From positions 1-64,000 of the forward strand of contig NZ_ASGZ01000008.1 of assembly GCF_000495475.1 (NCBI RefSeq): 64,000 nt of DNA, in the 5' to 3' direction. Of the stretch, positions 10,655 to 63,441 are shown piece by piece. Position 1 is the first letter of the stretch, and the number at the start of each line of letters is the position of its first letter. The stretch comes from Candidatus Halobonum tyrrellensis G22. Lineage in GTDB: Archaea > Halobacteriota > Halobacteria > Halobacteriales > Haloferacaceae. The notes under the pieces are model-generated. The model worked only from the letters and a program-made list of their open reading frames with translations. It was not told the DNA's origin and made no database searches. Both the position numbers and the translations under genes were made by a program.

Positions 10655-10668
10655 TATCAATGGTGATT
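10655..10668. promoter_or_regulatory. TATC-N6-GATT dyad at the regulator's own start
   Basis: TATC (10655-10658), AATGGT, GATT (10665-10668), matching 7 of 8 arm positions of the dyad found at five motility promoters. Here it lies between the TATA-like box and the start codon of the winged-helix gene, where a bound protein would block transcription. Confidence 0.5.
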
Positions 10669-10770
10669 CACGTACGCAAAAATCTACCGACAGGTCGTGC
10701 GGCCTCGCCCGCTCCCCCGTGAACTGCCCACACACTACACCGCTCCGATCGTCCTGAACACCGCGTCTGT

Positions 10771-10805
10771 TATCTAAACAGATAATTTCGGAGTCACTCT
10801 TATTA
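10771..10805 (+). promoter_or_regulatory. Archaellin promoter with upstream TATC-N6-GATA dyad
   Basis: TATC (10771-10774), TAAACA, GATA (10781-10784), extended to 5-bp arms TTATC/GATAA. The AT-rich box CTTATTA follows at 10799-10805. Transcription should begin near 10829, leaving a leader of about 48 bases before the archaellin ATG, unlike the leaderless neighbours. Such a leader would suit high-level or post-transcriptionally controlled expression. Confidence 0.65.
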
Positions 10806-10876
10806 CCACCTTCCGTCTTTTCTGAGCCAGAACCTGGCTACCCGCAGTCGGCCGGGTCAAAGGATACACAACGCAA

Positions 10877-11470
10877 ATGTTCGAATTCATCACGGATGAG
10901 GAAGAGCGCGGTCAAGTCGGTATCGGGACACTCATCGTGTTCATCGCGATGGTCCTCGTGGCGGCGATCGCCGCAGGCGTCCTGATCAACACCGCGGGCT
11001 TCCTCCAGTCGCAGGCCGAACAGACGGGTCAGCAAGCGAGCAGTCAGGTTTCCGACCGCGTCCAGGAGGTCGTCACGACCGGTAACGTGACCGACTCGGA
11101 GATCGAGTGGGTGAACGTCACGGTCACGAAGGCGCCCGGCGCGGGCGACATCGACCTGGAGAACTCCACGGTCACTTGGATCGGTCCGAGCGGTACCTAC
11201 TCGCTCGTCCACCAGAACCAGAGTGAGTCGGGTAACGAGTTCTTCACCGTCAACGACGTGTCGGACTCCGACGACTCCTCCCCCGTCCTGAACGACGTGG
11301 GCGACCGTCTCCAGCTTTCGTTCAACGTGACCGAGACCGACGGCTTCACCGGTCCGCTCCAGGAGGGCGACAAGGTGACCCTCGAGGTCAACACGGTGTC
11401 GGGCGCGACGACGACGATCCAGTTCGCGGTGCCCGAGTCGCTCAGCGGCAAGAACGCGGTCAAGCTCTAA
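10877..11470 (+). CDS. arlA: Archaellin (archaellum filament protein precursor)
   Basis: A 197-residue filament subunit. The class III signal peptide is [12 protein letters not shown], cut by the prepilin peptidase (not in this window) between Gly12 and Gln13, followed by the near-invariant [18 protein letters not shown] hydrophobic helix that packs the filament core. The outer domain is beta-rich and Thr/Ser-rich with five N-x-S/T sequons (two NVT near residues 70-80, then NST, NQS and a late NVT), so N-glycosylation is expected as in other haloarchaeal archaellins. Only one archaellin gene is present, where many relatives carry two or more. Confidence 0.95.
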
Positions 11471-11540
11471 GCTCGCTGCCGACTCGCGCGGTCACTTCCG
11501 AGTACAGCGTTTCGATCACTTCTTTCAGTACCACACCACC

Positions 11541-12128
11541 ATGAGTGACGACGATACGATCCTCGACCCCGACGACCTCGATGTGACCGACAGCGACCAC
11601 GTCCACGAACTCGACGACGACCGGTTCGTGGTCTCGACGGGGTCGAGTCCGCCGCGCGCGTCGTCCGATACGGCGGCGTCCGACGGGACGCCGCCCGAGT
11701 CGACCGGCCCGGGCGACGGCGCGGACGCCGACGGTCCGACCGGGGTGTCGGGTGAGGGCGACGGGCACCCCGTCGGCGACGCGACAGCCGACGCGCAGCG
11801 ACGGGCGAGCGACCTCGTCGAGAGCGGCGACGCGTACGGCTTCGACGTGGTCCTCGCGTTCGACGACGACGTGACGCACCACCGGACGACCTCAGACGAC
11901 ATCGCCGAGGCGTTCGAGTCGCTCGTGGTCGGGTTCGCGCGGAGCACCGACGGTCACCTCCCGCCCGAGGAGACGCTCGGCGTCCTCCTCGGCGGGATGG
12001 ACGAACCGGTCCGCCTCCCCGAACGGGAGCTATACCGCGCGCTCTCGCGGCACGGCCTCTCGCCGGACGACTCGGTCGGCGACCTCCTCGCCGCGGTCCG
12101 CGACGAGCGGGGGCTCACGCTGGAGTAG
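11541..12128 (+). CDS. Acidic haloarchaeal protein of the motility cluster (DUF7500-like)
   Basis: A 195-residue soluble protein with two parts. Residues 1-85 are an acidic, low-complexity, probably disordered tail. Residues about 86-195 are a folded helical domain (AQRRASDLVESGDAYGFDVVLAFDD to LLAAVRDERGLTLE). Its place between archaellin and cheY matches a family I recall as DUF7500 in haloarchaeal motility clusters, function unknown. A helical domain with an acidic tail would suit an adaptor, but that is inference. Confidence 0.7.
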   Translation: MSDDDTILDPDDLDVTDSDHVHELDDDRFVVSTGSSPPRASSDTAASDGTPPESTGPGDGADADGPTGVSGEGDGHPVGDATADAQRRASDLVESGDAYGFDVVLAFDDDVTHHRTTSDDIAEAFESLVVGFARSTDGHLPPEETLGVLLGGMDEPVRLPERELYRALSRHGLSPDDSVGDLLAAVRDERGLTLE

Positions 12129-12214
12129 CCGGCTTCCAGCCGCCCGCAGTCCCGTTTTCACCGATGATACTCCCGGGCGAGCGTTTATGCTCGTCGGCGG
12201 GACGGATCGGTTAT

Positions 12215-12577
12215 ATGCCGACAAGAGTGCTGATCGCCGACGATTCCGAGTTCATGCGGAGCCTCCTCCGGGAGATCCTCGAAGGGGAGTTCGAGATCGT
12301 CGGGGAGGCGGAGAACGGGGTGGAGGCGGTCGATATGTACGGCGAGCACGAGCCCGACATCGTCATGATGGACATCGTGATGCCGATCCGTGACGGGATC
12401 GAGGCGACCAGCGAGATCACCTCCTCGAACGACGACGCCAGCGTCATCATGTGTACGAGCGTCGGGCAGGAGGAGAAGATGAAGGCGGCCATCAAGGCCG
12501 GCGCGCAGGGGTACATCACGAAACCGTTCCAGAAGCCGAACGTGCTCGACGCCATCAACGACGTCGTCCCGGCGTAG
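12215..12577 (+). CDS. cheY: Chemotaxis response regulator CheY
   Basis: A 120-residue stand-alone receiver domain. Acidic pocket Asp9/Asp10, phospho-acceptor Asp53 (MMDIVMP), Thr81 and Lys103 (ITKPF) are all present. Phosphorylated by CheA, archaeal CheY acts on the archaellum through CheF and ArlCDE rather than through FliM. The ATG at 12215 is chosen because the receiver fold starts there and a GTTTATG box is about 30 bases upstream (12182-12188), giving a leaderless mRNA. It is followed two bases later by cheC and probably co-transcribed with cheC and cheD. Confidence 0.95.
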   Translation: MPTRVLIADDSEFMRSLLREILEGEFEIVGEAENGVEAVDMYGEHEPDIVMMDIVMPIRDGIEATSEITSSNDDASVIMCTSVGQEEKMKAAIKAGAQGYITKPFQKPNVLDAINDVVPA

Positions 12578-12579
12578 GG

Positions 12580-13806
12580 ATGGACGTCGATATCAAGTCG
12601 CTTGGCACGTTCAGTCGACTGGCCAGCCAGGGCGCCGACCGCGCGGCGTACGCGTTCGCCCAGCTCACCGGCACGAACGTGTACGCCGACGTGACCGACG
12701 TGACGCTGATGGCGGCGGGCGACCTCGAACGCGCGTTCGACGGCCGGGAGTTCGTCGGCGTCGAAGTGGGGCTGCGGGGCGGGCTGGTCGGCCAGACCGT
12801 GATGGCGTTCGAGCGCGACGCCGCCGAGACGCTGCTGTCGCTGCTCGGCGCCGACCGGACCGACGACGAGTTCGCACGGAGCGGCGTCACGGAGGCGGGC
12901 AACATCATGACCAGCGGGTTCATCGACGGCTGGGCCGACCACCTCGGCATCGCCATCGACATGACGCCGCCGACGTACGTCCGCGCGTCGGGGACCGACA
13001 TCCTCCCCGACGGGGCGTTCGACGGCGACCGCGCGGGGGTGTTCATGTTCGAGTCGCAGGTCGCCTCCTCGGACGCCGAGGTCGGGTTCACCATCTACCT
13101 GCTCCCGGAGTACACCGGCTTCACCGACCTCCTCACCGCCCGACGCCAGGCGGCCGGCGAGGAAGCCGGCGAGTCCGTCCCGGTCGATAAACTCCCGGCG
13201 TTCAACCAGTTGACGAAGCGGGGGACCCAGAGCGCCGCCGAGAACATCACGATGATGACCGGCACGCCGACCGACGTGGACGTCTCGCGGCTCAGGTTCG
13301 TCCCCGTCGAGGACGTCCCCTCCGAGGTGGGCGACGAGACGGTGGTCGGCACCGTCTTCGAACTCCAGGGCCTCCCGAGCGGCTACCTCGCCATCCTGTT
13401 CGACGAACCGTCGGCGAAGGCGGTCGCCGGCGGGATGATCCCGACCGAGACCGACGACGGCATCGGCGAGATGGAACGCGGGGCGCTCCGGGAGTTGGGC
13501 AACATCATGACCAGCGGGTTCATCGACGGCTGGGCGAACGTGCTCGGGACCAGCATCGAGCACACGCCCCCGCAGTTCGTCCACGACATGGGCGCGGCCG
13601 TGATGAGCCCCATCGTGAGCCAACTCGGCCGGACACAAGAACACGCGTTCATCATCGACTCGACCATCCGTACCCCCGACGAGGGCGTGCGGTGTGACAT
13701 CTACGCACTCCCCGACCAGCGGGAACTCGCGGCGGCGCTCGACGGTATCGATCCGGCGGTTGCCGACGGGGGGTCGCTCGGGACGGGGACAGATGGGCCG
13801 TCCTGA
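12580..13806 (+). CDS. cheC: Tandem CheC phosphatase (CheC-CheC fusion, CheJ-like)
   Basis: A 408-residue protein made of two CheC-like units 200 residues apart. Each carries the same active-site block GNIMTSGFIDGWA, with Glu105/Asn108 in the first unit and Glu305/Asn308 in the second, and a Pro about 22 residues later, matching the E-x2-N...P site that dephosphorylates CheY-P. In bacterial CheC each unit has two such sites. Here the other site in each unit (DRAAYAFAQLTG and SAAENITMMTG) has no proper E-x2-N. The size resembles halobacterial CheJ. The gene overlaps cheD by 14 bases. Confidence 0.9.
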   Translation: MDVDIKSLGTFSRLASQGADRAAYAFAQLTGTNVYADVTDVTLMAAGDLERAFDGREFVGVEVGLRGGLVGQTVMAFERDAAETLLSLLGADRTDDEFARSGVTEAGNIMTSGFIDGWADHLGIAIDMTPPTYVRASGTDILPDGAFDGDRAGVFMFESQVASSDAEVGFTIYLLPEYTGFTDLLTARRQAAGEEAGESVPVDKLPAFNQLTKRGTQSAAENITMMTGTPTDVDVSRLRFVPVEDVPSEVGDETVVGTVFELQGLPSGYLAILFDEPSAKAVAGGMIPTETDDGIGEMERGALRELGNIMTSGFIDGWANVLGTSIEHTPPQFVHDMGAAVMSPIVSQLGRTQEHAFIIDSTIRTPDEGVRCDIYALPDQRELAAALDGIDPAVADGGSLGTGTDGPS

Positions 13807-14338
13807 ACCCGTTACCGACGGCGGCGCGGGGTCCGTCGACACGCTCGCGGGCACAGACGCGGCCGGCGGCGAACGCCTGAAGGTGGGTCTCTCCGAGGCC
13901 CGCGTCGCCGGCGACGGCGCGCTGCTGGTGACCAGCGGGCTCGGCTCCTGTCTCGGCATCGTCGTCTACGACCCGACGACCGGCGTCGGCGGGCTCCTCC
14001 ACGCGATGCTGCCGGCGGCCGAAGACCACCCCGGTCCCGACGAGAAGTTCGTCACCGAGGGGGTCGCGGCGCTGGTCGCGGCGCTCGCCGACGAGGGCGT
14101 GACCGACGGCCTGCGCGCGAAGTTCGCGGGCGGCGCCGCCATGCTGAACTTCTCGCTCGACGAGGACGGTGGCTCGATCGGCGACCGCAACGTGGCGGCC
14201 GCCGAGGCGGCGCTCGCGGACCACGACGTCCCGGTCGTCGCGACGGACACGGGCGGCGACCGCGGCCGGTCGCTCCGGTTCGAGACCGCCACCGGCCGCC
14301 TCCACGTCTCGTCGGCCGACGGCGACGCCGTCATCTGA
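13793..14338 (+). CDS. cheD: Chemoreceptor glutamine deamidase CheD
   Basis: A 181-residue CheD. The catalytic Thr47, Cys53 (in SGLGSCLGIVVYD) and His70 (LLHAMLP) have the exact 6- and 17-residue spacing of the Thermotoga enzyme. CheD deamidates receptor glutamines and binds CheC, raising its phosphatase activity; overlap with cheC by 14 bases suits complex formation. The first 28 residues are a non-conserved, flexible extension. The ATG at 13793 is the only one that keeps the whole domain without reading far into cheC. Confidence 0.93.
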   Translation: MGRPEPVTDGGAGSVDTLAGTDAAGGERLKVGLSEARVAGDGALLVTSGLGSCLGIVVYDPTTGVGGLLHAMLPAAEDHPGPDEKFVTEGVAALVAALADEGVTDGLRAKFAGGAAMLNFSLDEDGGSIGDRNVAAAEAALADHDVPVVATDTGGDRGRSLRFETATGRLHVSSADGDAVI

Positions 14339-14400
14339 TCGTACGAGGTGGGTGCGTGGTACATACCTCGTCGACCCCCGAACCCGCCGCCCCACACTGT

Positions 14401-14434
14401 TATCCGAATCGATAATCCGCGGGGAGGATTTAAG
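14401..14434 (+). promoter_or_regulatory. arl operon promoter with TATC-N6-GATA dyad
   Basis: TATC (14401-14404), CGAATC, GATA (14411-14414), preceded by TGT exactly as in the archaellin promoter (TGTTATC). The TATA-like ATTTAAG is at 14428-14434, 13 bases after the dyad, and 27-30 bases before the arlCE ATG, predicting a leaderless transcript. Confidence 0.65.
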
Positions 14435-14460
14435 CGTCAGTCGGTGGTGGAATCGCAGTA

Positions 14461-16092
14461 ATGGGTCTCCTCACCGTGCTGTCCGGGACGGCTGTCGTTC
14501 CGGGCGGCGACTTGGGACTTCTCGTCTCCATCGGACTGCTCGGAGCGAGCCTGCTCGACCGTTTCCGCGACGGCGGCGACGACGCGGACGTCGGCGACGC
14601 CGAGGGGGACCCGCTGCTCGACGACGACGACGCGTTCGGCGGCGACGACGGCGACGACGAGGGCGGGGGGGATGACCTCGACGGACTGGACGGGATGGAC
14701 GGGATGGACGACTGGGGCGACGACGACCCGTTCGGCGACGAAGAGGAGGACGACACGGCCGAGATGGAGAACCGGCTCGAGGACCTCGAGAACGAGGTCG
14801 CGAGCCTCTCGTCGTCGGTCAGCACCGTGCGCTCCGAGAACGAGGAGATCTCGGGGCAGGTGGAGGAGATCAGCGAGGACGTCAGGAGTCTGCTCGACAT
14901 CTACGAGATGGTCACGCGGGGAATCAACCCCTTCGTCGACGACGCCCAAGGCGGGATGGGCGGCGACCTCGGCGGCGAGGAGTCGTTCGGTCTCTTCGAC
15001 GGCGACGACGAGGAGGAGGAGGAGGCGGACGAGGACCTCGACGACGACCTCGCGTCCGCCGAGGCGGAGTCGTTCTTCGACGAGGATCTCGCCGACGACG
15101 GCGGGGCGTTCGACGACGGGGAAGCACTCGACGACGGTGGGGCGGTCGACGACGGGGACGCGCTCGCCGACGAGGAGGCACTCGACGACGGCGGGGCGTT
15201 CGACGACGAGGACGACTTCGAGGAGGACGGGGAGTTCGACGACTTCGACGACCTCGACGCGGACGACGACTTCGGCGCGGGCGACGACCTCGACGGCCTC
15301 GACGAACTGGACGACGAATCGGACGGCGACTCCGACGCGGACGACGACACCACAGACACCGACACTATGGCGACCGAGAACGGCGGCGGCAAGAGCTTCA
15401 GTGAACTGAAAGACGAGTACGAATCGGGTGACGCCGACTGGGCCGACGCCGGCGAGGCGTTCGACGTCGACGACTTCGACGACCCCGAGCCGGACCCGAG
15501 CCCAGAGACCGACGGCGCGGTCCCCGACGCGGGCCCGGAGCCGGACCCCGCTCCGGCGTCCGAACCGGCCCGGGAGCCGGATCCCGCTCTAGCGTCCGAA
15601 CCGGCCCCGGAGCCGGACCCAGCTCCGGCGTCCGAACCGGCCCCGGCCCCGGAGCCGGACCGCGGGTCGCGGGCCGACCCGGTCGACGACGGTGGGTTCG
15701 AGTTCGTCAGCGAGGGGGACCTCTCCTCGAAGCCGCAGAAGCCGTACCTGACGAAACTCCCGGGTGACTACGTGGGCGACCTGATGGTGATGGAGTGGCT
15801 GGAGTACCTGGTCGAGGAGTCGGATGCGACCGACGCGGTCCGCGCCGTCAACTACTACGAGCGCATCGAGTGGGTCGACGAGAGCGTCGCGCGCCGGCTG
15901 AAGGACTTCCTCTCGGGGTTCGGCGACATCGACCGCAACCGGGTGGACGAGCCCGGCACGGCCCAACTCACCCTCGACCACCACACCCAGAGCCTGAAGT
16001 ACGTGATGCAGCTCACGAACGCGACGGCCGAGTCGGTCGTGATCGACCGGTGGCCGCAGCTCTCGGGGGGAGTCCGTGGGTCTCAGCGTTAG
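14461..16092 (+). CDS. arlCE: Archaellum switch protein ArlC/E fusion
   Basis: A 543-residue protein. It has a short N-terminal hydrophobic stretch, then an ArlC-type coiled coil (about residues 100-155, RLEDLENEVASLSSSVSTV) ending TRGINPFVDD. A long acidic, low-complexity linker (about 165-320) and a Pro-rich 12-residue repeat region (about 360-395) follow. The C-terminal ArlD/E domain spans about 425-535 (KPYLTKLPGDYVGDLMVMEWLEYLV). ArlCDE form the cytoplasmic ring that receives CheY-P/CheF signals. The linker is unusually long. No separate arlD gene is seen in the window, although other haloarchaea usually carry one. Confidence 0.9.
   Translation: MGLLTVLSGTAVVPGGDLGLLVSIGLLGASLLDRFRDGGDDADVGDAEGDPLLDDDDAFGGDDGDDEGGGDDLDGLDGMDGMDDWGDDDPFGDEEEDDTAEMENRLEDLENEVASLSSSVSTVRSENEEISGQVEEISEDVRSLLDIYEMVTRGINPFVDDAQGGMGGDLGGEESFGLFDGDDEEEEEADEDLDDDLASAEAESFFDEDLADDGGAFDDGEALDDGGAVDDGDALADEEALDDGGAFDDEDDFEEDGEFDDFDDLDADDDFGAGDDLDGLDELDDESDGDSDADDDTTDTDTMATENGGGKSFSELKDEYESGDADWADAGEAFDVDDFDDPEPDPSPETDGAVPDAGPEPDPAPASEPAREPDPALASEPAPEPDPAPASEPAPAPEPDRGSRADPVDDGGFEFVSEGDLSSKPQKPYLTKLPGDYVGDLMVMEWLEYLVEESDATDAVRAVNYYERIEWVDESVARRLKDFLSGFGDIDRNRVDEPGTAQLTLDHHTQSLKYVMQLTNATAESVVIDRWPQLSGGVRGSQR
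15538..15645 (+). repeat. Three 36-bp tandem repeats inside arlCE
   Basis: Units 15538-15573, 15574-15609 and 15610-15645 encode EPDPAPASEPAR, EPDPALASEPAP and EPDPAPASEPAP. They keep frame and form a stiff Pro/Glu-rich spacer between the acidic linker and the ArlE domain. Confidence 0.8.
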
Positions 16093-16510
16093 CGTTTCGA
16101 CCGCCGTCGTCTGTCTGGGGCTGTTCGTCGCCGCCGGCGTCGCCTACCCGGCGGTCGCCAACGGCGCCGAGCGCGTCTCGGAGGCGAACGACGCCGCCGC
16201 CGACCGCGCGCTCGACCGCCAGCAGACGGGCGTCGCCGCGGCGAACGCGACGTACCACGCCGGCAACGACACGTTGGTCGTGACCGCGCGCAACGACGGC
16301 TCGACGACGCTCGACGTGACCCGCACGACGCTGCTCGCCGACAACGAGTACGTCCCGTCGACGGCGACCGTCGCGGGCGCGAACGACACGGCGCTGTGGC
16401 TCCCGGGCGAGACGGCCCGGTTCGAGAGCGGCCTCTCGACCGCGCCCGACCGCGTCACCGTCGTCGTCGACCACGGCGTGCGCGACTGGGTAGACGTGGA
16501 GGTGGCCTGA
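16076..16510 (+). CDS. arlF: Archaellum stator protein ArlF
   Basis: A 144-residue protein with one N-terminal membrane helix (STAVVCLGLFVAAGVAYPAV) and an outer beta-sandwich. ArlF binds the S-layer and, with ArlG, forms the stator that holds the motor against the cell envelope. Three N-x-S/T sequons (NAT, and NDT twice) lie in the outer domain. It starts at a GTG inside arlCE (17-base overlap) and its stop shares one base with the arlG start, so expression is translationally coupled. Confidence 0.88.
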   Translation: MGLSVSVSTAVVCLGLFVAAGVAYPAVANGAERVSEANDAAADRALDRQQTGVAAANATYHAGNDTLVVTARNDGSTTLDVTRTTLLADNEYVPSTATVAGANDTALWLPGETARFESGLSTAPDRVTVVVDHGVRDWVDVEVA

Positions 16511-16962
16511 TGGCGGGCGCGAGCATCTCGGAGATGATCCTGTTCATCGCCGCGCTCGTCGTCGCCGCGAGCGTCGCGGGCACGCTCACGAGCGAGGTGG
16601 CCCACGTCGGCGACGCCATCTCCGCGCGGTCGCTCGACGTGGCCGACCAGGTCCGCTCGGACGTCGAAGTCGTCTCCGACCCCGCAGTGGGGGTGTACAA
16701 CACCTCCGGGGACGGAAACGTCACGGTGTACGTCCGCAACACGGGCTCGTCGACGCTCCCGACCGGAGCCGACGGGGTCGACGTACTCCTCGACGGCCGG
16801 TACCGAACGGACGTGCGGCTCACGGTCGTCGACGGCGGTGACACGTGGGCGCGCGGGAGCGTCGTCCGCCTCGACGTGCCCGCGCCGGGGCTCGCGTCGG
16901 GCGACCACCGGCTGATGCTGGTGGTCAACGAGGACGAGGAGGTGTTCCGGTTCCGCACATGA
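16510..16962 (+). CDS. arlG: Archaellum stator protein ArlG
   Basis: A 150-residue protein with an N-terminal helix (SEMILFIAALVVAASVAGTL) and an archaellin-like outer beta domain. ArlG filaments cap onto ArlF to anchor the stator in the S-layer. The pair TSG and NVT near residues 65-75 includes one glycosylation sequon. The start overlaps arlF by one base and the stop overlaps arlH by four (ATGA). Confidence 0.87.
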   Translation: MAGASISEMILFIAALVVAASVAGTLTSEVAHVGDAISARSLDVADQVRSDVEVVSDPAVGVYNTSGDGNVTVYVRNTGSSTLPTGADGVDVLLDGRYRTDVRLTVVDGGDTWARGSVVRLDVPAPGLASGDHRLMLVVNEDEEVFRFRT

Positions 16963-17720
16963 GTAGCCGCACCCCAAACCAGAACCTGCTGTCGATCGGT
17001 CTCGGCGAGCGCGACCAGTTGAACAAGGAGCTCGGTGGCGGCATCCCGCGCGGGAGCATCGTCCTCATGGAGGGCGACTACGGCGCGGGCAAGTCGGCGC
17101 TCTCCCAGCGGTTCTGCTACGGGCTCGTCGAGGAGGGCGCGACCGTCACGCTGCTGTCGACCGAACTCACCGTCTCGGGGTTCATCAACCAGATGCACTC
17201 ACTCGAGTACGACGTGACCCGCGCCCTGCTGAACGAGAAGCTGCTGTTCCTCTCGGCCGACTTCGACTCCGGGGGGGCGTTCTCCGACGGCAGCGGCGAC
17301 CGCAAGGAGCTGTTGAAGCGGCTGATGGAGGCGGAGGTGATGTGGAAATCGGACGTGGTCATCCTCGACACGTTCGACTCCATCCTCCGGAACGACCCCA
17401 CGTTCGAGGCGCTCGTCCGCAACAACGAGGAGCGGCAGGCGGCCCTGGAGATCATCTCGTTCTTCCGGAACATGATCTCACAGGGGAAAACGATCGTGTT
17501 GACGGTCGACCCCTCGGCGGTCGGCGACGAGGCGATCGGCCCGTTCCGGTCGATCGCGGACGTGTTCATGGAGCTCCAGATGGTCGAGGTGGGCAGCGAC
17601 GTCCGTCGGAACATCTCGGTGAAGCGCTTCGCCGGCATGGGCAGCCAGGTCGGCGACACGATCGGGTTCTCCGTCCGTTCGGGGACGGGCCTGGTCATCG
17701 AATCACGGAGCGTCGCGTAG
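16959..17720 (+). CDS. arlH: Archaellum ATP-binding regulator ArlH
   Basis: A 253-residue KaiC-like protein. Walker A GDYGAGKS is at residues 39-46 and the Walker B-like VVILDTFDS near residue 133. ArlH autophosphorylates and docks under ArlI/ArlJ in the cytoplasm, acting as a switch between assembly and rotation. The start is the ATG overlapping the arlG stop; a longer in-frame extension lies wholly inside arlG. A 59-base gap follows before arlI. Confidence 0.94.
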   Translation: MSSRTPNQNLLSIGLGERDQLNKELGGGIPRGSIVLMEGDYGAGKSALSQRFCYGLVEEGATVTLLSTELTVSGFINQMHSLEYDVTRALLNEKLLFLSADFDSGGAFSDGSGDRKELLKRLMEAEVMWKSDVVILDTFDSILRNDPTFEALVRNNEERQAALEIISFFRNMISQGKTIVLTVDPSAVGDEAIGPFRSIADVFMELQMVEVGSDVRRNISVKRFAGMGSQVGDTIGFSVRSGTGLVIESRSVA

Positions 17721-17779
17721 ATGATCGGAGCGGGCGCGCATTCGACGCGAGCGCGCCCGCGCGTGGCGAGTCGTGACAC

Positions 17780-32553: not shown

Positions 32554-34194
32554 CTACTCGGGGCGGGCGCCGCCGTCGGCGCGTGCCGCCCCGGTCTCGC
32601 GGTCCTCGCGGAGTTCGGACACCCGCGCGGAGAGCCCCTCGATCGCGTCGGTCTGTTCGTCGGTCGCGGCGACGATGCGGTCCGCGGCGCCCTCGGTCTC
32701 CTCGGCGCGTCCGCGCACGTCCTCGATGGTGGCGGTGAGTTCCTCCACCGTGGCGGCCTGGTCGTCGGTCGCGCGCGACACCTCGCCGATGCCGTCGGCC
32801 GCCTCGTCGATGGCGGCGGCGATGTCGTCGAACGCCGCGAGCACGTCGTCGATCTGGTCGGCGGCGTGGTCGATCTGCTGGTGGCTCTCCTCGGCGGCGA
32901 TCACCGTCGAGTCGGTCTGCGTCTGGAGTTGGTCGATGTTCTCGGTGATCTGTTCGGTGTGCTGGCGGGTCTCGTCGGCGAGCGTCTTGACCTCCTCGGC
33001 GACGACTGCGAACCCGTCGCCGTCCTTGCCCGCGCGGGCGGCCTCGATGTTGGCGTTCAGGGCCAGGAGGTTGGTCTGTTCGGCCACGTCGGAGATGACC
33101 TCCACGACCGCCTCGATGTCGTCCATCCGCTCGCCGAGGTCGGTGACCGACGTGACGAGCTCCTCGCCGATCTCGGTCACATCGGCGGTCGCCTCGCTGG
33201 CGTCCTCGGAGGCGTCGAGGCCCTCGTTTGCGGCCTCGCGCGCCTGCTCGGCGGCGGCGTCGACCTGTTCTGCGGTCGCGGCCACCTCCTCCATCGACGC
33301 CGAGAACGTCTGCATCTCCGAGACCCCCTCGGTGAGCAGTTCGTTCTGCTCGCCGACGTTCTCGGCGATATCCTCGGCGGCGTCGACGGCGTCGTCGACG
33401 GCCGTCTTCAGCCGGGCGGTCTGTTCGTCGACGCCCGCGGCGGTGTCCTCGAAGTTGGCGGCCACCCGGTTGAGACCGTCCGTCATCCCCTCGGTCAGCC
33501 GCTCGTCGAGTACGTCGTGTTCGTCGTCGAACGACGCGCGCGCGCTCAGGTCGCCCGCCACCAGCGATTCGAGGGTCTCGTGGAGTTCGTCCGAGAACGC
33601 CCGGATCGACTCCTCGTTGAGCACCGACTCGGTGCGGTCCTCCACCGTCTCGACCGCCCCGACGAGGTCGTCGCCCTCGTACAGCGGCGTCGCCGTGTAC
33701 GAGAGGTACCGCGTCTCTCCGTCGGGGCCGACTATCTCGCCCTCGTCGGCGTACCGCGAGAGCGCCTCGTCGTCGAGCGTCACGTCGTACTCGCGGTGGG
33801 CGGTCTCGGGGTGGGCGAGCACCCGTTCGGCGAGCGTCTCGCCCGCTCCGTCGCGCCGGCCGACCAGCGCACCCGGGTCAGCGTGTCCGACCGCCTCGGC
33901 GGCGTCGACGCCCGTGATCGCCGCCATCGCGGCGTTCCACGCGACCACCTCGCCGTCGGCGTCGAGCATGAACACCGCCGATCCTACCCCGTCGAGCAAC
34001 ACCCCGTCGTCGACGTTCAGCCCGTCCGCCTCGTTCGTCTCGTCACCGCGTTCGGCGTCCGCTCCACCGGGTCCGGCGGCCGGCCCCGCGTCCGTGTCGA
34101 CAGTCTCGTTCACCGCGACCCCGCCGTCGGTGACGGCGTCGTCGGTCGCGTCGGCGGCGAACAGCGCCCGGATCCGGTCGGATAACGACAGCAT
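32554..34194 (-). CDS. Soluble PAS-containing chemotaxis/phototaxis transducer (Htr, MCP)
   Basis: A 546-residue methyl-accepting transducer with no membrane segment. The N-terminal 60 residues are acidic linker, a PAS domain follows (about 65-190, including [22 protein letters not shown]), and the long coiled coil reaches a hairpin tip [20 protein letters not shown] near residue 380, which binds CheW/CheA. Methylatable Glu/Gln pairs flank it. With PAS it probably senses a cytoplasmic signal such as redox state. It stands alone at 32-34 kb, between the two motility islands, with a matching operator-like promoter. Confidence 0.93.
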
Positions 34195-34219: not shown

Positions 34220-34252
34220 GTTAACGTTGTCTCCCGCGAATCACGCGTGATA
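34220..34252 (-). promoter_or_regulatory. Transducer promoter with TATC-N6-GATT dyad
   Basis: Read on the minus strand: TATC (34252-34249), ACGCGT, GATT (34242-34239). The inner 12 bases ATCACGCGTGAT (34240-34251) are a perfect palindrome. The TATA-like GTTAAC lies at 34225-34220, 14 bases further, and about 27 bases before the ATG, so the mRNA is predicted leaderless. Confidence 0.55.
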
Positions 34253-54677: not shown

Positions 54678-54849
54678 CCCCGCGGCCGGCGGACGACTCG
54701 ACCGCCGACCGCTCCCGACGGTACCCGCGGGCGCCGACGGGTCGCGGCGTCCGACGGCAGGTCGCTGGGTTCGTTTCGTCGCGCCCGCCGTTATCATCGT
54801 CGAAACGGGGCGCGAAACGGTCAAGTAACGAGGGTCGCTTCGAGGGAGT

Positions 54850-55716
54850 ATGACCGAATCGGTCGTCGCCGACTTCGTCGGGCGGTTCGTCCCGCCCGGT
54901 GGCGGGAACGAGCCGTCGAGCGGGCGGATCGTTCTCAGCCAGCGACGGCTCGTCCTCGCGGCCGACGACGACCGCGTGACGATCCCCCTCTCGGCGGTGT
55001 TCGACGTGACGGTAAAACAGGTCCCCCCACAGGTCACGGGCTACTTCAACGACACCGTCACCGTCGCCTACCGCGACGACGACACGCGGCGGCTCGTCGC
55101 CATCGAGGGGTCGAACGACAACATCGACCGGTTCGTGACGGTGCTGTTCAAGGTGCTGCTCAACGGCACCACCGTCAGGCTCCACCACCCCGCGAAGGTC
55201 GGCGGCCGCGTCACCGACGCGACCACGTCGCAGGCGACGCTCTCGCTGTCGATGGGTTCGATCGCGTTCGACCGCGACGACGAAACCGTCTCGGTCGACC
55301 TCGACGACGTCATCGCCGTCGAACGCGAGGAGCGCGACTTCGGCAACGGCGCGCGGCCGGTCGTCTCGTTCCGCCACGTCGCCGACGGGCGCGCCGTCAC
55401 CTCGGAGGTCGGGCTGCCCTCGGGGCGGAAGACCAACCTGCTCGGCCGGTACATCCGGCTGCGCTACGCCGACGCCAAGGCGGAACTCGAGGAGTTCGAC
55501 CCGAACGAGGCCGAACTGGAGGTGCTGGTCGCGCTCTACACCGCCGGGAGCGACGTGTCGCTGCCGGCCGTCGTCGACATCGACCCTCAGCGGCTGACGA
55601 TGCTGCTCAACGGGTTGGCCGACGAGGGCGTCGTCGTCGACACCGTCGACGGCACCGAACTCACCCCGAAAGGGCGGATCGTCGTGGGTCAGCGGCTCGA
55701 ATCCGTCAACACCTGA
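54850..55716 (+). CDS. cheF1: Archaeal chemotaxis adaptor CheF (first copy)
   Basis: A 288-residue DUF439 protein, the archaea-specific CheF that links CheY, CheC/CheD and the archaellum. Two beta-rich halves (about 1-90 and 95-195) resemble paired PH-like folds, followed by a helical winged end (EELEV-type, DVSLPAVVDIDPQRLTMLLN). A TATC half-site at 54792-54795 and TCAAGTAAC at about 54821-54829 give a leaderless start. The order cheF1, cheF2, HEAT protein resembles the halobacterial cluster in which CheF was first described. Confidence 0.92.
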   Translation: MTESVVADFVGRFVPPGGGNEPSSGRIVLSQRRLVLAADDDRVTIPLSAVFDVTVKQVPPQVTGYFNDTVTVAYRDDDTRRLVAIEGSNDNIDRFVTVLFKVLLNGTTVRLHHPAKVGGRVTDATTSQATLSLSMGSIAFDRDDETVSVDLDDVIAVEREERDFGNGARPVVSFRHVADGRAVTSEVGLPSGRKTNLLGRYIRLRYADAKAELEEFDPNEAELEVLVALYTAGSDVSLPAVVDIDPQRLTMLLNGLADEGVVVDTVDGTELTPKGRIVVGQRLESVNT

Positions 55717-57353: not shown

Positions 57354-58574
57354 CTACCGCACCCCCCCGAGCTTCGACAGCGCGGCGAACGCCCGCTTGC
57401 GCACCTGCTTGTCGGGGTCGCCGTCGGTGAGCCGGTCGAGCACCTCGCGGGCGCGGTCGCCGCCCACGTCGCCGAGCGCGTACGTCGCGCGGGCGCGCGA
57501 GTCGACCGGCGCGTCGTCGTCTCGCACGAGTTCGATCAGCGCCGACTCCACGTTGTGCCCCTCCAGCCCGGTGATGCTCGTCGCGGCGAACTGCGCGGTC
57601 ATGCGGTCGTCGTCCGACAGCGCGCCGACGAGCGCGTCGACCGCCTCGTCGGGCGGGTGGTCGCTGGTCACGCGCCCGAGGAACCAGACGGCGTTGCGCC
57701 GCTGGCGCGACTGGTCCGCCTCCGCGAGAATCTCCACGAGCGGCCCGACGACCGTCGAGTCGTCGGCCTCGCGGAGTTCGGAGACGACCGCCTCCCGGAC
57801 CGCGTGGCTCTGGTCGGTCGGCGCGTTCGCCAGCAGTTCGATGATCGAAAACACCGCGGCGCGCCGGACCGTGTCGTGTTCGTCGCCGAGCGCGGCTGCG
57901 AGCCGCGGCACCGGCTCCGCGCTGTCGGCGTTGCCGAGCGCGCTCGCGGCCAGCCGGCGGATCGACGGGTTGTCGTCGTCGAGCAGGTCCACCAGCGCCG
58001 CGAGCGCGGCGTCGGTGGCGATGGTGCCGAGCGCGTCGGCCGCCGCGGTCTTGACCCCGCCGTGGTCGTCGGCCAACTGCGCCCGGAGCCGGCTGACCGG
58101 CCGCGGGTCGCCGATCCGGCCGAGCGCGTGACACGTCCGTTCGCGCACCCGCGGGTCGTCGTCCGAGAGCGTCTCGACCAGCGGGCCGACCGCCTCGGCG
58201 TCGCCGATCCCCCCGAGCGCGTTCGCGGCCGCCATCCGGAGTTCCGGCATCGACGCCGACAGCGCCTCCGTGAACGCCCCCACCGCGACCCACTCGGCGG
58301 CGTCGGGTTCGATATCGGTCTCGGCGGCGAGCAGGCGTTCGAGCGCGTCCGGCCCGATTTCGTCCAGCCCGTCGATCGCCGCCGCGCGGACGCCCTCGTC
58401 GTCGTCCTCGGTCGCGAGCGCCACGAGCGTCTCGACCACCGCCTCGTCGTCCGGGTCGGCCACCTGGCCGACGACTTTCGCCGCCCGACCGCGGACCGCG
58501 GGGCTCTCGCTCTCGCGCGCGCGTGCGAGGAGTTCGTCCGTCTCGTTGTTTCGTGCGAGCGTGTACAGCGACAT
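57354..58574 (-). CDS. HEAT-repeat chemotaxis-associated protein
   Basis: A 406-residue helical repeat protein of about a dozen PBS-lyase HEAT units (ALGRIGDPRPVSRLRAQL; ALGTIATDAALAALVDLL; ALGDVGGDRAREVLDRL). It matches the HEAT_PBS protein next to cheF in Halobacterium (OE2401F), which was found together with CheF in interaction studies of the archaellum signalling path. It probably serves as a protein-binding scaffold. It lies 11 bases after cheR and directly abuts cheF2. Confidence 0.9.
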   Translation of the reverse strand: MSLYTLARNNETDELLARARESESPAVRGRAAKVVGQVADPDDEAVVETLVALATEDDDEGVRAAAIDGLDEIGPDALERLLAAETDIEPDAAEWVAVGAFTEALSASMPELRMAAANALGGIGDAEAVGPLVETLSDDDPRVRERTCHALGRIGDPRPVSRLRAQLADDHGGVKTAAADALGTIATDAALAALVDLLDDDNPSIRRLAASALGNADSAEPVPRLAAALGDEHDTVRRAAVFSIIELLANAPTDQSHAVREAVVSELREADDSTVVGPLVEILAEADQSRQRRNAVWFLGRVTSDHPPDEAVDALVGALSDDDRMTAQFAATSITGLEGHNVESALIELVRDDDAPVDSRARATYALGDVGGDRAREVLDRLTDGDPDKQVRKRAFAALSKLGGVR

Positions 58575-58585
58575 CGTCCTCCCCT

Positions 58586-59410
58586 CTAGTCCGCCCCGAC
58601 GTAGCGGTAGATCCGGCTGCGTTTGGCCACCGGTTCGAACGCGCCCCGACAGCCCGGCGGAACGGTCTCGGTCTTCCCGACGACGAGGTAGCCACCCTCC
58701 CCGAGTGACGCGGTCAGCGTCTCGAACAGCGGCTCCTTGTACGCGCCGTCGATGTAGATGAGGAGGTTCCGACAGAACAGCAGGTCGACGTCCGACTTGG
58801 GTCCGTCGCGGATCAGGTCGTGCGTCTCGAACGTGACCCGCTGCTTGATCCGGTCGCGGACGCGGAACCGGGTGCCGTCCTCCTCGACGTACGGCTCGTA
58901 CTCCGAGAGCGGGCCGAGTTCCGCGCCGATGTCGGTCGTCCGGGTCGTCTCGTAGACGCCCGCCCGCGCCGCCGCGATGGCGGGTTCGCTGATGTCCGTC
59001 GCCAGGATGTCGACCCGGCGCTCGGTCACCTCGTCGTCGTCGGCCGCGAGCATCGCCAGCGAGTACGGCTCCCGGCCGTCCGAGCAGGGGGCGCTCCACG
59101 CGTTGACCCGGCGGCGCTCGGTCGACAGTTCCCGCAACACCGGCCGGAGGTCCGCCCACATGTCGGGGTCGCGGAAGAAGCCGGTGACGTTGACCGTGAG
59201 CGCGTCCAACAGCGCCTCGCGCTCGTCGTCGTCGTCGCGGAGCACCCCGAGGTACTCGTCGTGGTCGGCCGCGTCCCGGCGCTGCATCCGCGCGGCGATC
59301 CGCCGTCCGAGGTACGCCTCGTTGTAGTAGCCCGGCTCGAACGGCACCGCGTCCTCGACGAACGCGATGACCCGTTCGAGCCCGTCGTCGCCGGCGCGGC
59401 TCCGGCTCAT
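58586..59410 (-). CDS. cheR: Chemoreceptor methyltransferase CheR
   Basis: A 274-residue CheR that methylates transducer glutamates using S-adenosylmethionine. Markers are NVTGFFRDP near residue 75, the SAM-binding APCSDGREPYSLAML near 105 (bacteria usually have CSTGEEPYS; here Asp-Gly-Arg replaces Thr-Gly-Glu), ATDIS near 137 and FCRNLLIYID near 210. The start overlaps the cheA stop by four bases (ATGA). Confidence 0.94.
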   Translation of the reverse strand: MSRSRAGDDGLERVIAFVEDAVPFEPGYYNEAYLGRRIAARMQRRDAADHDEYLGVLRDDDDEREALLDALTVNVTGFFRDPDMWADLRPVLRELSTERRRVNAWSAPCSDGREPYSLAMLAADDDEVTERRVDILATDISEPAIAAARAGVYETTRTTDIGAELGPLSEYEPYVEEDGTRFRVRDRIKQRVTFETHDLIRDGPKSDVDLLFCRNLLIYIDGAYKEPLFETLTASLGEGGYLVVGKTETVPPGCRGAFEPVAKRSRIYRYVGAD

Positions 59411-61689
59411 CGGCGCCCCCCGAGCGTCTCCACGTCGAGGATCGACACCACGTCGCCGTCGCCGAGCACCGCCGTCCCCGAGAGGCCGGGCGTCCCCGAG
59501 AGCACACCCTCCAGCGGCTTCACCACGACCTCCTCCTGGTGGAGCACCTCGTCGCAGTGGAGCGCGACCGAGCGCTTCGTCTCGTGGATCCGCAGCAGCA
59601 TCCCCGGCCCGCCGGTTCCGCGACCGGCCGTCTCGTCGCCGCCGGCCGTCTCACCGCTGGCGGCCGTTCCGTCGCCGTCAGCCGTCTCACCGCTGGCGGC
59701 CGTTCCGTCGCCGTCAGCCGTTTCCCCCCCGTCGGACAGGGCGGGCGTCGAGACGCCGCCGCGGTCGTGGAGCACCGACGAGAGGCGGACGACCGGGTAG
59801 ATGTCGTCGTCGTGCCGCACCACCTCGTCGCCGTGGACGGTGTCGACGGCGTCCGCCCGGGACACCTCCGCGATGTTCTTGATCGGGACGCCGTACTCGA
59901 CGCCGTCGACGCGGACGAACATCACCCGGACGATGGCCACGGTGACGGGCAGTCGGATCTCGAAGCGCGTCCCCTCGCCGGGTGTGGAGTCGAGCGTGAC
60001 CGTCCCGTCGAGTTCCTTCACCGTCGTCCGCACCACGTCCATCCCGACGCCGCGACCCGAGACGTCGGTCACCTCGTCGTTGGTCGAGAAGCCGGGGTGG
60101 AACACGAGTTCGCGCGCCTCGGCGTCGGTCATCGCCTCCACCTCCGCGGGCGTCTTGGCGCCCTTCTCGACCGCCTTCTCGCGGATAGCGTCGGCGTCGA
60201 TGCCGCCGCCGTCGTCCTCGACGACGATGGTGACGTGGTCGCGCTCGCGGGTCGCGCGGAGTTCGATCGACCCCTCGGGCGGCTTGCCCGCCGCCTCGCG
60301 CTCCTCGGCCGACTCGATGCCGTGGTCGACCGCGTTCCGCAGGATGTGCACCAGCGGGTCGCGGATCTCCGTGAGGATCGTCCGGTCGAGTTCGATGTCG
60401 CGGCCGTCGATGTCGAACGACACCGACTTCCCCTGCTCGCGGGAGAGGTCACGCACCAGCCGCGGGAACGTGTCCACGACCGCCGACAGCGGGATCAGCC
60501 GCATGTCCATCACCGTGTTCTGGAGGTTCGACGATATCTTGTCGAGTTCGTCGAGGTTGCCCGAGTCGACGTCGGCCTCCTCCATCTCCCGGCGGAGTTT
60601 GATCCGGCTGGTCACCAACTGCTCGACCAGCCCGTACAGGTCGTCGAGCCGTTCGACGTCGACCCGGATCGACGAGATGGTGTCCGACGACGACCCCGAG
60701 TTGGACCCGGAGTCGGATGCCGACGCCGCGTCGTCGTCCCCGGTCTCCGTCTCGTCGCCCGCGTCGTCGCCCGCGTTGGCACCCCCCTCGTCGCCCGCGT
60801 CTGTCGCGTCGTTCGCCTCGACCGCGTCGTCGCCGTCCGCGCCCGCCGCGTCGCCGGGCGCGGGGTCGACCGCCCGCACCTCGACCGAGTCGGTCTGTCT
60901 GACCGCGTCGAGACCCGCCGCCACCGCCTCGCCCGACTCGGCGACGACGTAGCAGTCGAACGAGCCGTCGAACGCGCCGTCCTCGACCGCCTCCCGGTCG
61001 GGGTCGGTCGCGACCCCCGCGAACGCATCGTCGGCCGCGTCGAGCACGAAGATGGCGTCGACGCCCGGCATCTCCGTCTCCGCGAGCGTCACCGTCGCGC
61101 GGTAGACGCCCTCGCTCTCGCCCGGCGTCAGGCCGTGGTCGAAGCCGTCGGCGGCCGGCGCGTCCGTCGCCGCCGCGTCGTCGGCGTCGTCGGCGTCGTC
61201 CGAGTCGGTGTCCGTGTCGTCGGCGTCCGTGTCGTCGGCGTCGTCCGCACCGGCAGCCCCGCCGTCGTCGGCGTCGGCGGTGACGCCGGCCACCTCCTCG
61301 GCCGACACCGACCCGCTCTCGGCGAGCGACCGGAGCGCGTCGGCCAACTCGCCCGTCTCGACGGTCGCCTCGCCCGTGTCGTCGATCTGGCCGAGCATCT
61401 CGTCGAGGCTGTCGACCGCCTCGAACAGCAGGTCCATCAGGTCGCCCGACACCGCGATGTCGCCGTCGCGCACCTCGTCGAGCAGGTCCTCCATCGCGTG
61501 CGCCAGCCCGGAGAACTCGCCGAACCCCATCGCGGCGGCGTTCCCCTTCAGGGTGTGGGCGGTCCGAAACACGCTGTCCATCGCCGCCCCGTCGTCGGGG
61601 TCGGATTCGAGCGCCAGCAGCGCGTTGTTGAGGTCGGTGATCCCCTCCTCGCTCTCGCGGACGAACGCGCGGACGTGCGCGTCGGACAT
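59407..61689 (-). CDS. cheA: Chemotaxis histidine kinase CheA
   Basis: A 760-residue CheA. The HPt domain with phospho-His45 (AHTLKGNAAAMGF) is followed by an acidic linker, a P2-like CheY/CheB-docking domain (about 240-320), a second acidic linker, the dimerisation helix pair, the HATPase (HILRNAVDHGIE; GRGVGMDVV) and the CheW-like P5 domain. P5 carries a repeat insert of about 50 residues. It receives the transducer signal and phosphorylates CheY and CheB. Its ATG shares one base with the cheB stop. Confidence 0.95.
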   Translation of the reverse strand: MSDAHVRAFVRESEEGITDLNNALLALESDPDDGAAMDSVFRTAHTLKGNAAAMGFGEFSGLAHAMEDLLDEVRDGDIAVSGDLMDLLFEAVDSLDEMLGQIDDTGEATVETGELADALRSLAESGSVSAEEVAGVTADADDGGAAGADDADDTDADDTDTDSDDADDADDAAATDAPAADGFDHGLTPGESEGVYRATVTLAETEMPGVDAIFVLDAADDAFAGVATDPDREAVEDGAFDGSFDCYVVAESGEAVAAGLDAVRQTDSVEVRAVDPAPGDAAGADGDDAVEANDATDAGDEGGANAGDDAGDETETGDDDAASASDSGSNSGSSSDTISSIRVDVERLDDLYGLVEQLVTSRIKLRREMEEADVDSGNLDELDKISSNLQNTVMDMRLIPLSAVVDTFPRLVRDLSREQGKSVSFDIDGRDIELDRTILTEIRDPLVHILRNAVDHGIESAEEREAAGKPPEGSIELRATRERDHVTIVVEDDGGGIDADAIREKAVEKGAKTPAEVEAMTDAEARELVFHPGFSTNDEVTDVSGRGVGMDVVRTTVKELDGTVTLDSTPGEGTRFEIRLPVTVAIVRVMFVRVDGVEYGVPIKNIAEVSRADAVDTVHGDEVVRHDDDIYPVVRLSSVLHDRGGVSTPALSDGGETADGDGTAASGETADGDGTAASGETAGGDETAGRGTGGPGMLLRIHETKRSVALHCDEVLHQEEVVVKPLEGVLSGTPGLSGTAVLGDGDVVSILDVETLGGRR
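59645..59716 (-). repeat. Perfect 36-bp tandem repeat inside cheA
   Basis: Two identical 36-base units, 59645-59680 and 59681-59716, each encoding 12 residues of the GETADGDGTAAS pattern, with a diverged third (GETAGGDETAGR). They lie in a loop of the CheW-like domain between its two halves. Confidence 0.85.
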
Positions 61690-62738
61690 CACGGGGCCCC
61701 CCGGACGATGCCGCCGGCGACGTCCGCCAACGGGAGCACCGCGCCGACGCGGCCCGTCGCGGCCGCGCGCTTGGGCATCCCGTACACCACGGACGTCTCC
61801 TCGTCCTGTGCGACGACGAACCCGCCGGCGTCGGCGATGGCGTTGACGCCGTCGGAGCCGTCGTCGCCCATTCCGGTCAGCACCACGCCGACCAGCGGGT
61901 CGTCGACCTCGCGGGCGGCCGACTCCATCGTCACGTTGACCGACGGGCGGACGTTCTGTCCGCGGTCCTCGTCGACGAGTCGGACCCGGAGCCGACCGTC
62001 CCGGTAGTTCGACACCTCCATGTGGAGCCCGCCGCGGGCGACGAGCACCTCGCCGCGGCCGACCCGAGCGCCGTCGGTCGCCTCGCGCACGTCGAGTCCG
62101 CAGGCGGCGTCGAGGCGGGCGGCGAACCGGCCCGTGAACGCCTCGGGCATGTGCTGGACCACCAGCACCCGGATGTCGGCGTCGGGCGGCAGGTCGCACA
62201 GCACCCGCTCGACCGCGTCGGGACCGCCGGTCGACGACCCGATGACGACCGTCGTGTTGGGCGCGACGTCGGCCGCCGTCGACGCCGACCCAGCGGCCAC
62301 CTCGGCGGGCCGCTCGCCGGCCCCCGAGAGGTCCGCGCCCGCGACCGACCGGACCGTCTCCACCAACTGCGATTCGAGCCGCGAGACGCCCATCGACACC
62401 TCGCCGCCGGGTTTCGCGAAGAAGTCGACCGCGCCCGCGTCGAGCGCCGCGAACGTCTCCTCGGCGCCCTCGTCGGTGTACGCCGACAGCATGAGTACCG
62501 GCGTCGGTCGCTCGGCCATCAGCCGCTCGACCGCCTCGATGCCGTTCATCCGCGGCATCTCCACGTCCATCGTCACGACGTCGGGGTCCGTCTCGGCGAC
62601 GACCCGCACCGCCTCCTCGCCGTCGGCGGCCTCGGCGACCACCTCGACCCCGCCGGATTCGAGGATGTCGGTGATGAGTCCGCGCATGAACCGCGAGTCG
62701 TCCACGACGACCGTCCGTGGTCCGCCGTGCACGCTCAC
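61689..62738 (-). CDS. cheB: Chemotaxis methylesterase CheB
   Basis: A 349-residue response-regulator methylesterase. The receiver has Asp13/14, phospho-acceptor Asp58 (TMDVEMP) and Lys in FFAKPGG; the CheB catalytic triad is Ser in GSSTGGPDAV, His in VQHMPEAF and Asp in TGMGDDGSDG. It removes methyl groups from transducers. Start choice: an in-frame GTG at 62795 would lie upstream of the predicted transcript start (TTGATTAG box at 62802-62809, start near 62779), so the GTG at 62738, preceded by a G-rich stretch, is preferred with a leader of about 40 bases. Confidence 0.9.
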   Translation of the reverse strand: MSVHGGPRTVVVDDSRFMRGLITDILESGGVEVVAEAADGEEAVRVVAETDPDVVTMDVEMPRMNGIEAVERLMAERPTPVLMLSAYTDEGAEETFAALDAGAVDFFAKPGGEVSMGVSRLESQLVETVRSVAGADLSGAGERPAEVAAGSASTAADVAPNTTVVIGSSTGGPDAVERVLCDLPPDADIRVLVVQHMPEAFTGRFAARLDAACGLDVREATDGARVGRGEVLVARGGLHMEVSNYRDGRLRVRLVDEDRGQNVRPSVNVTMESAAREVDDPLVGVVLTGMGDDGSDGVNAIADAGGFVVAQDEETSVVYGMPKRAAATGRVGAVLPLADVAGGIVRGAP

Positions 62739-62801
62739 GTCCGCCCCCCGACGCCCGGCCCCGTGGCGTGTCTGGTCATGGACGCTCGTATCCACAGACG
62801 G

Positions 62802-62857
62802 CTAATCAAGCCACGGTCCCGAATATCGGCGGTGATATCACGAGGCGCACGATTAAG
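62802..62857. promoter_or_regulatory. Divergent cheB/cheW promoter with TATC-N6-GATA dyad
   Basis: TATC (62824-62827), GGCGGT, GATA (62834-62837), extending to 5-bp arms ATATC/GATAT. The cheW box ATTAAG (62852-62857) is 14 bases downstream and about 27 bases before the cheW ATG (leaderless). On the other strand TTGATTAG (62809-62802) lies about 15 bases from the dyad and would drive the cheB-cheA-cheR-HEAT-cheF2 operon. One site could thus control both transcripts. Confidence 0.6.
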
Positions 62858-62880
62858 GAGGGGGACGGTCGCCTACGTGT

Positions 62881-63339
62881 ATGGCGAGCAGTCAAAGTCA
62901 CGGCGGACCCGCGGCCGAGGCGGCCGACGCCGACGAGTTGACACAGGTGCTGGAGTTCGGACTCGGCGAGGAGACGTACTGTCTCGACATCGCCTACATC
63001 GACGAGATCGTCGACGCGACCGACCTGACGGCGATCCCGAACTCGCCGCGGCACGTCGAGGGCGTGATGGACCTCCGGGGGAAGACGACCACGATCATCG
63101 ACCCGAAGGTGTTCCTCGGCGTGGCCGAACAGGGCGCGCGCGAACGGATCATCGTCTTCGACCCCGCCGAGACGGGCGACGGCGGCACCGTCGGCTGGGT
63201 CGTCGACGAGGTGTTCCAGGTCCGCGACGTCACCCCCGACCAGGTGGACGACACCACGGTCAACGCCGACGAGTCCATCCGCGGCATCGTCAAGGACGAC
63301 GACCGGTTCGTCGTCTGGGTCGAACCGCGGACCGAGTGA
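62881..63339 (+). CDS. cheW: Chemotaxis coupling protein CheW
   Basis: A 152-residue CheW that bridges transducers to CheA. An acidic 20-residue N-terminal tail precedes the SH3-like fold, with EETYCLDIAYIDEIV, the family-conserved PNSPRHVEGVMDLRGKTTTI and VGWVVDEVFQVRD. It is the only cheW in the window; halobacteria often have two or more. The transcript is predicted leaderless. Confidence 0.95.
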   Translation: MASSQSHGGPAAEAADADELTQVLEFGLGEETYCLDIAYIDEIVDATDLTAIPNSPRHVEGVMDLRGKTTTIIDPKVFLGVAEQGARERIIVFDPAETGDGGTVGWVVDEVFQVRDVTPDQVDDTTVNADESIRGIVKDDDRFVVWVEPRTE

Positions 63340-63407
63340 GCGACCGCCCGCCGCGCCCGCGCGGCGGGCGAGTCATCGTCGGGTCGCCGACGAGCCAACC
63401 GCTAAAA

Positions 63408-63441
63408 TATCCAATCTGATACGTAGGCACGAACCGTTATA
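63408..63441 (+). promoter_or_regulatory. Promoter of the second KaiC-like gene with TATC-N6-GATA dyad
   Basis: TATC (63408-63411), CAATCT, GATA (63418-63421). The TATA-like TTATA is at 63437-63441, 15 bases downstream, and about 27 bases before the ATG (leaderless). Confidence 0.6.

Follow-up and report, generated by a model that had tools for sequence, protein, structure and literature searches.

Organization of the motility locus and its promoters

The window analyzed here, the first 64,000 nucleotides of contig NZ_ASGZ01000008.1 of Candidatus Halobonum tyrrellensis G22, has a G+C content of 71% and carries an archaellum-chemotaxis cluster, in which profile matches identify archaellin (arlA), cheY, cheC, arlCE, arlI, arlJ, a PAS-MCP transducer, two cheF genes, cheB, cheR, cheW, and two KaiC-like genes. 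Several promoters of this cluster share a dyad, TATC-N6-GATA, positioned at a regular distance from a TATA-like box (Table 1). The overall best explanation is that the dyad is, in all likelihood, the binding site of a winged-helix protein encoded within the same cluster, very probably an ortholog of the haloarchaeal regulator CsmR.

Within the window, the dyad is exact at only four positions, 10771, 14401, 62824, and 63408, as the first-pass annotation had listed them; 0.06 copies are expected, and none of 100 shuffles reaches four. Allowing one mismatch yields 11 sites against 2.5 expected, among them the two 7/8 copies also reported in that annotation, at 34239 and 10655, both of which are real. 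TTA begins 16 bases past the end of the dyad at arlA, arlCE, cheW, kaiC2, and cheY, and the cheB and transducer promoters have an AT-rich box within ∼1 base of the same dyad-relative position. The set distance between dyad and TATA-like box proposed earlier is thus real at these promoters, but the copy at 10655 has the opposite, repressor-like geometry.

A window-wide scan for the dyad (up to two mismatches) with an AT-rich box at +15 to +21 returned eight matches, and the six with at most one mismatch all fall in motility or KaiC promoters (arlA, arlCE, cheY, cheW, cheB, and kaiC2). The cheY promoter (12156) is a further motility promoter with the dyad that was overlooked in the first reading; the cheF promoter (54792) is probably a second, and could still be chance. 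The one-mismatch sites at 34171, 44630, and 52459 lie within genes without a TATA box at +15 and were discarded. No dyad was found at the arlI promoter in the window, although six dyad-TATA units of close relatives precede this gene. A DUF7500 gene (11541-12128) also lies within the cluster, between archaellin and cheY.

Table 1. Genes, dyad sites, and TATA-like boxes of the G22 window
Feature	Position	Strand	Evidence
KaiC-like ATPase, convergent with csmR; candidate cirA ortholog	9505..10263	+	Pfam KaiC, synteny
csmR ortholog (very probably), 113-amino-acid winged-helix regulator, divergent from archaellin, tail-to-tail with KaiC gene	10309..10650	-	Pfam HTH_20/HTH_24
csmR dyad (7/8), 4 base pairs (bp) before ATG, downstream of own TATA; predicted autorepression site	10655..10668	-	
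TATA-like box of csmR (TAGATTTTT), upstream of dyad	10678..10686 (about)	-	
Archaellin promoter dyad, exact; TATA TTATTA 10800-10805	10771..10784	+	Kept in orthologs
arlA (archaellin)	10877..11470	+	Pfam PF01917
cheY promoter dyad, 7/8, TTTC..GATA; TATA TTTAT at 12184	12156..12169	+	At -57 to -68 in other genera
cheY, heads cheY-cheC cluster	12215..12577	+	NCBIfam CheY_Halo; CheC match
arlCE promoter dyad, exact; TATA TTTAAG at 14429	14401..14414	+	Exact composite site at arlCE in 8/8 relatives
arlCE	14461..16092	+	Pfam FlaC_arch, Arch_fla_DE
PAS-MCP transducer (htr)	32554..34194	-	Pfam MCPsignal, PAS
Transducer promoter dyad, 7/8; TTAA 34221-34224	34239..34252	-	Dyad in 7/12 orthologous promoters
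cheF weak dyad, TATC..GAAA, TCAAGTAA at +16; candidate only	54792..54805	+	One-mismatch scan
cheF	54850..55716	+	Pfam CheF-arch
cheB, then cheA (by inspection) and cheR, same strand	61692..62744	-	Pfam CheB, CheR; open frame with CheA-like start
cheW/cheB common dyad, exact; TTAA at 62853 (cheW), TTGATTA 62803-62809 (cheB)	62824..62837	.	Two-sided in 17/18 orthologous loci
cheW	62881..63339	+	Pfam CheW
kaiC2 promoter dyad, exact; TTATAC at 63437	63408..63421	+	Less conserved, 3/13 orthologs
Second KaiC-like gene (kaiC2), continues past window end, 231 amino acids	63466..64000	+	Pfam KaiC

The window regulator is a probable ortholog of CsmR of Haloferax volcanii

CsmR (HVO_1209) of Haloferax volcanii is a winged-helix protein of 13 kDa whose gene lies upstream of arlA1/arlA2 (PMC13286277, PLoS Genet, 12 June 2026). 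Its chromatin immunoprecipitation sequencing (ChIP-seq) motif, TATCA(N4)TGATA, is present in 50 of 65 peaks, where it adjoins the TATA boxes of genes for the archaellum and chemotaxis (PMC13286277). The core of this motif is identical to the TATC-N6-GATA dyad, with the fifth arm base (A/T) kept only in part in the G22 genome. Within the window, the motif stands beside TATA boxes, sites precede archaellin, arlCE, cheY, and the cheB operon, and the regulator gene adjoins both archaellin and a KaiC-like gene.

By size, neighbors, and fold, the gene at 10309-10650 is very probably the csmR ortholog. The best Foldseek match of its product is Phr (2P4W), which is likewise the best fold match of CsmR (PMC13286277). 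Its nearest named relatives come from Halobaculum species. In a probable Haloferax (L122), the corresponding protein is 63% identical to it and the genes run csmR-archaellin-KaiC, consistent with the locus described for H. volcanii. Among 24 relatives, L122 included, the DNA-recognition stretch PIATCYRRI hardly varies. CsmR has been classed in the Lrp/AsnC family (PMC13286277). For the window protein, no Lrp/AsnC profile or fold match was found, the Pfam matches being those in Table 1 and the top Foldseek matches Phr and ArsR-type repressors.

The earlier suggestion of one regulon for filament, motor, sensors, and signaling is supported, and fits the published CsmR work, the dyad-TATA units of relatives, and the conservation described below. 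The regulon, the regulator, and the motif were already published in 2026 and hence are not new (PMC13286277); a literature search turned up no previous account of this kind of motif in Halobacterium.

The dyad is conserved at a single spacing

Comparison of orthologous promoters, a check suggested with the first annotation, found the dyad kept at spacing six only, at arlA, cheB/cheW, cheY, and the transducer. Of the 69 loci in which an archaellin start is present, 25 show an exact dyad within 160 bp upstream, and 57 have one with at most one mismatch, against 0–1 and 1–16, respectively, for other spacings. Bases +16 to +19 are all A or T in every arlA promoter with the dyad, mostly TTAA or TTAT. 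At all but one of 18 orthologous cheB-cheW loci, the divergent promoter holds one dyad (at most one mismatch) with a TATA box ∼15 bp off on each side; other spacings account for 0–4. A one-mismatch dyad is found in 7 of 12 transducer orthologs, and cheY orthologs carry the dyad at the tabulated position in several genera, with none found in the Halorubrum cheY promoters compared. Conservation is weaker at kaiC2 (3 of 13 orthologs), and the KaiC gene adjoining csmR has no dyad at its promoter and none conserved in its orthologs. The spacing of the TGM site of TrmBL1/Tgr (TATC-N9-GATA core) is not conserved in the promoters compared.

Eight close relatives together contain 30 exact dyad-TATA units, of which 18 precede archaellum genes (arlCE 8, arlI 6, archaellin 4). 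The remainder precede transducers (3), pilin-like genes (3, by inspection), a STAS-like family (4, by inspection), a sensor kinase (1), and one unknown gene; the kinase is the ortholog of one with a one-mismatch site in the G22 genome. A sensor histidine kinase (HATPase, four-transmembrane-like) has a unit in two genera (L143, G000:C24:30111; L162, G026:C1:655016), and these orthologs, 71% identical, are candidates for a new CsmR target. In Halobaculum-like genomes, units also occur at type IV pilin-like genes (L179, L173, L183) and at a small STAS-like family (L158, L182, L184, L185).

Specificity resides in the dyad-TATA unit

Pattern searches of the G22 genome returned 24 bare TATC-N6-GATA sites against 13.7 on average for each of the remaining spacings between 3 and 9 (106 sites in all), so that many single sites are background. 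The reversed pattern is a biased control for the bare dyad, with CTA/TAG words being rare and the dyad exceeding the control in csmR-less genomes too. When TTAW is included 15 bp downstream, 10 exact sites remain against 1 in the reversed control, or 33 against 4 with up to one mismatch. The dyad is therefore specific only when a TATA box at fixed distance is included. The genome scan that had been proposed is accordingly favorable for the composite unit but only weakly so for the bare dyad, and the earlier argument that the motif is unlikely to be chance stands within the window but does not extend to a bare dyad specific to motility genes genome-wide.

The six exact units outside the window stand in front of genes for a seven-transmembrane PAS sensor kinase, two small zinc-finger-like proteins, a small membrane protein, and a DUF7289 protein, and before an Mre11-like gene, where the unit probably falls inside an upstream gene; only some of the six need be real. 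Four small zinc-finger-like proteins (50–71 amino acids; L134, L135, L148, L151) are encoded downstream of exact or near-exact units in the G22 genome. Genes for the DUF7289 protein (L128, G000:C7:2018) and a PilB3-like ATPase (L138, G000:C7:26279) share one contig and both have a unit, which hints at a pilus system in the regulon.

Dyad-TATA units depend on csmR across haloarchaea

We scored csmR in 294 genomes of the class at E < 1e-20 and found it in 247, a count set by a threshold that a diverged csmR, as may exist in genus g28 and parts of g35, would miss. Bare dyad counts separated genomes with and without csmR poorly and were abandoned for spacing controls and the dyad-TATA unit. The 247 csmR-containing genomes hold 862 exact units (3.49 each), compared with 7 in the 47 csmR-less genomes (0.15 each), while the reversed pattern occurs 0.29 and 0.32 times per genome, respectively. 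The association holds at genus level (p = 3e-8). Within genus g14, one csmR-less species has no units and six congeners have 4–9. Motility loss does not account for the missing units, because in 22 of the 47 csmR-less genomes the archaellum family PF04659 is still present, but these 22 have just 5 units among them. Archaellin promoters inspected at csmR-less arl loci have no dyad, save for a one-mismatch copy in g28.

It has been stated that csmR always co-occurs with archaellins (PMC13286277). In genera g5, g28, g35, and g58 (for example, L186-L197), archaellum genes are present without a clear csmR, contradicting that statement. Some archaellum clusters resemble a second type, with a PF04659 pair of ∼350 and 155 amino acids 5.5 kb apart. 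Conversely, L048, L050, L057, and genus g8 retain csmR and its KaiC neighbor with no archaellin found nearby, which suggests another role or recent loss of motility.

The csmR promoter places the dyad downstream of its TATA box

In csmR promoters with a dyad, 9–14 bp separate it from the TATA box on its upstream side and 3–6 bp from the start codon on its downstream side. Because it is located between the two, the dyad would cover the likely transcription start. A csmR-proximal dyad with at most one mismatch is present at 49 of 89 loci and in 14 of 33 genera; any other spacing reaches at most 9 loci (those from one genus) or 6 genera. The arrangement makes negative autoregulation of csmR moderately likely. 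This geometry, and the single dyad for both cheB and cheW, appear to go beyond the main text of the CsmR report, which mentions neither autoregulation nor transducers (PMC13286277).

Discussion

Our model places a CsmR dimer on each dyad. The two 4-bp arms lie one helical turn apart (10 bp center to center), as expected of a winged-helix homodimer, and CsmR binds this motif in H. volcanii (PMC13286277). At arlA, arlCE, cheY, cheW/cheB, kaiC2, and the transducer, the dimer would sit just upstream of the transcription factor B recognition element (BRE) and TATA box, 15 bp from TATA, and could help to recruit transcription factor B and TATA-binding protein. Between cheB and cheW, a single dimer may serve both promoters, because the site is symmetric. 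At csmR itself, a dimer bound between TATA and start codon would block transcription. For TrmBL1/Tgr, VNG1451C, and OxsR, the position of the site relative to BRE/TATA goes with the sign of regulation. We infer activation of the motility genes together with autorepression of csmR because archaeal regulators with both site positions activate from upstream and repress from downstream; activation by the upstream dyad at target promoters is quite likely. The fuller proposal stands at about even chances: CsmR would be a dual regulator whose sign is set by the position of its site, its feedback loop would be conserved in several haloarchaeal families, one symmetric site would run cheB and cheW together, and csmR-less archaellated lineages would have to use another regulator.

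Several observations weigh against this model. Deletion of csmR in H. volcanii raised archaellum transcripts while motility was lost, which the authors call a paradox (PMC13286277), and this rise leaves activation at the target promoters short of proof. In the genus that is probably Haloferax (L122), no csmR-proximal dyad is present, so that the model species of CsmR would seem to lack the site if L122 is Haloferax; in Halobaculum this dyad is weak. Exact units are missing from 25 csmR-containing genomes, mainly of genera g24, which has a one-mismatch arlA dyad with the right TATA spacing, and g8, in which four of five genomes lack PF04659. Finally, loss of csmR could accompany loss of other motility regulators.

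The transcript data could instead mean that CsmR represses all of its targets, with the dyad upstream of TATA keeping motility genes low until released; direct targets do rise in the deletion, and one passage of the report speaks of direct derepression (PMC13286277). We consider this unlikely, although it deserves to be weighed. The target sites stop 15 bp short of TATA and leave BRE/TATA free, which is the placement used by archaeal activators. Dual regulators known from archaea repress from downstream, a position held by csmR's own site and not by those of its targets. In addition, deletion abolishes motility and overexpression increases it (PMC13286277).

It is improbable that another factor, such as a TrmB-type protein with TATCA half-sites, binds the dyad while csmR merely travels with motility genes. 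The half-site does recur, with 3 bp more between the arms, in the TGM site of TrmBL1/Tgr (TATCAC-N5-GTGATA), and the window CsmR matches Pfam TrmB weakly, but ChIP-seq ties CsmR to this exact spacing (PMC13286277), other spacings are not conserved, and the motif vanishes in archaellated genomes without csmR. Chance placement of an AT-containing pattern before AT-rich promoters has next to no probability: the bare dyad is only ∼1.75 times as frequent genome-wide as other spacings, but the shuffles, the spacing-specific conservation across genera, and the csmR dependence refute it for the window set, with individual sites (54792, some genome-wide) excepted.

To our knowledge, the archaeal swimming switch was largely unknown outside Methanococcus, Pyrococcus, and Sulfolobus. 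Here, comparison extends a published single-species regulator to most of the haloarchaeal class, and a sequence rule (dyad, 15 bp, TATA) predicts targets among transducers, pilin-like genes, and sensor kinases. New here are the conserved geometry suggesting that csmR represses itself, the cheB/cheW site facing both ways, and the archaellated lineages without a clear csmR, which run against the published statement of constant co-occurrence. The two promoter geometries also make the question of activator or repressor testable.

Among known systems, EarA of Methanococcus and Pyrococcus is likewise a winged-helix regulator of archaellum genes that binds upstream of the promoter, but it has no sequence or structural similarity to CsmR and is reported absent from haloarchaea (PMC13286277). 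OxsR of H. volcanii and VNG1451C (TrmB) of Halobacterium resemble the proposed model in that one regulator's site position correlates with activation or repression, although their motifs and regulons are different. TrmBL1/Tgr of Thermococcales shares the identical TATCA half-site, activating upstream of BRE/TATA and repressing downstream. In contrast, it has the longer spacer, a sugar-metabolism regulon, and the effector domain of the TrmB family, for which the 113-amino-acid CsmR has no room. The closest counterpart is the CsmR regulon of H. volcanii. In G22, csmR is divergent from arlA with a dyad at its own start codon, whereas in the probable Haloferax L122 it is co-directional with arlA and lacks such a site. 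Both systems have the same dyad core and spacing by the TATA box, the same targets (archaellin, the arlCE operon, cheBAR, and cheYCD), and, beside archaellin and a KaiC-like gene, a small winged-helix gene whose product has Phr 2P4W as its best fold match.

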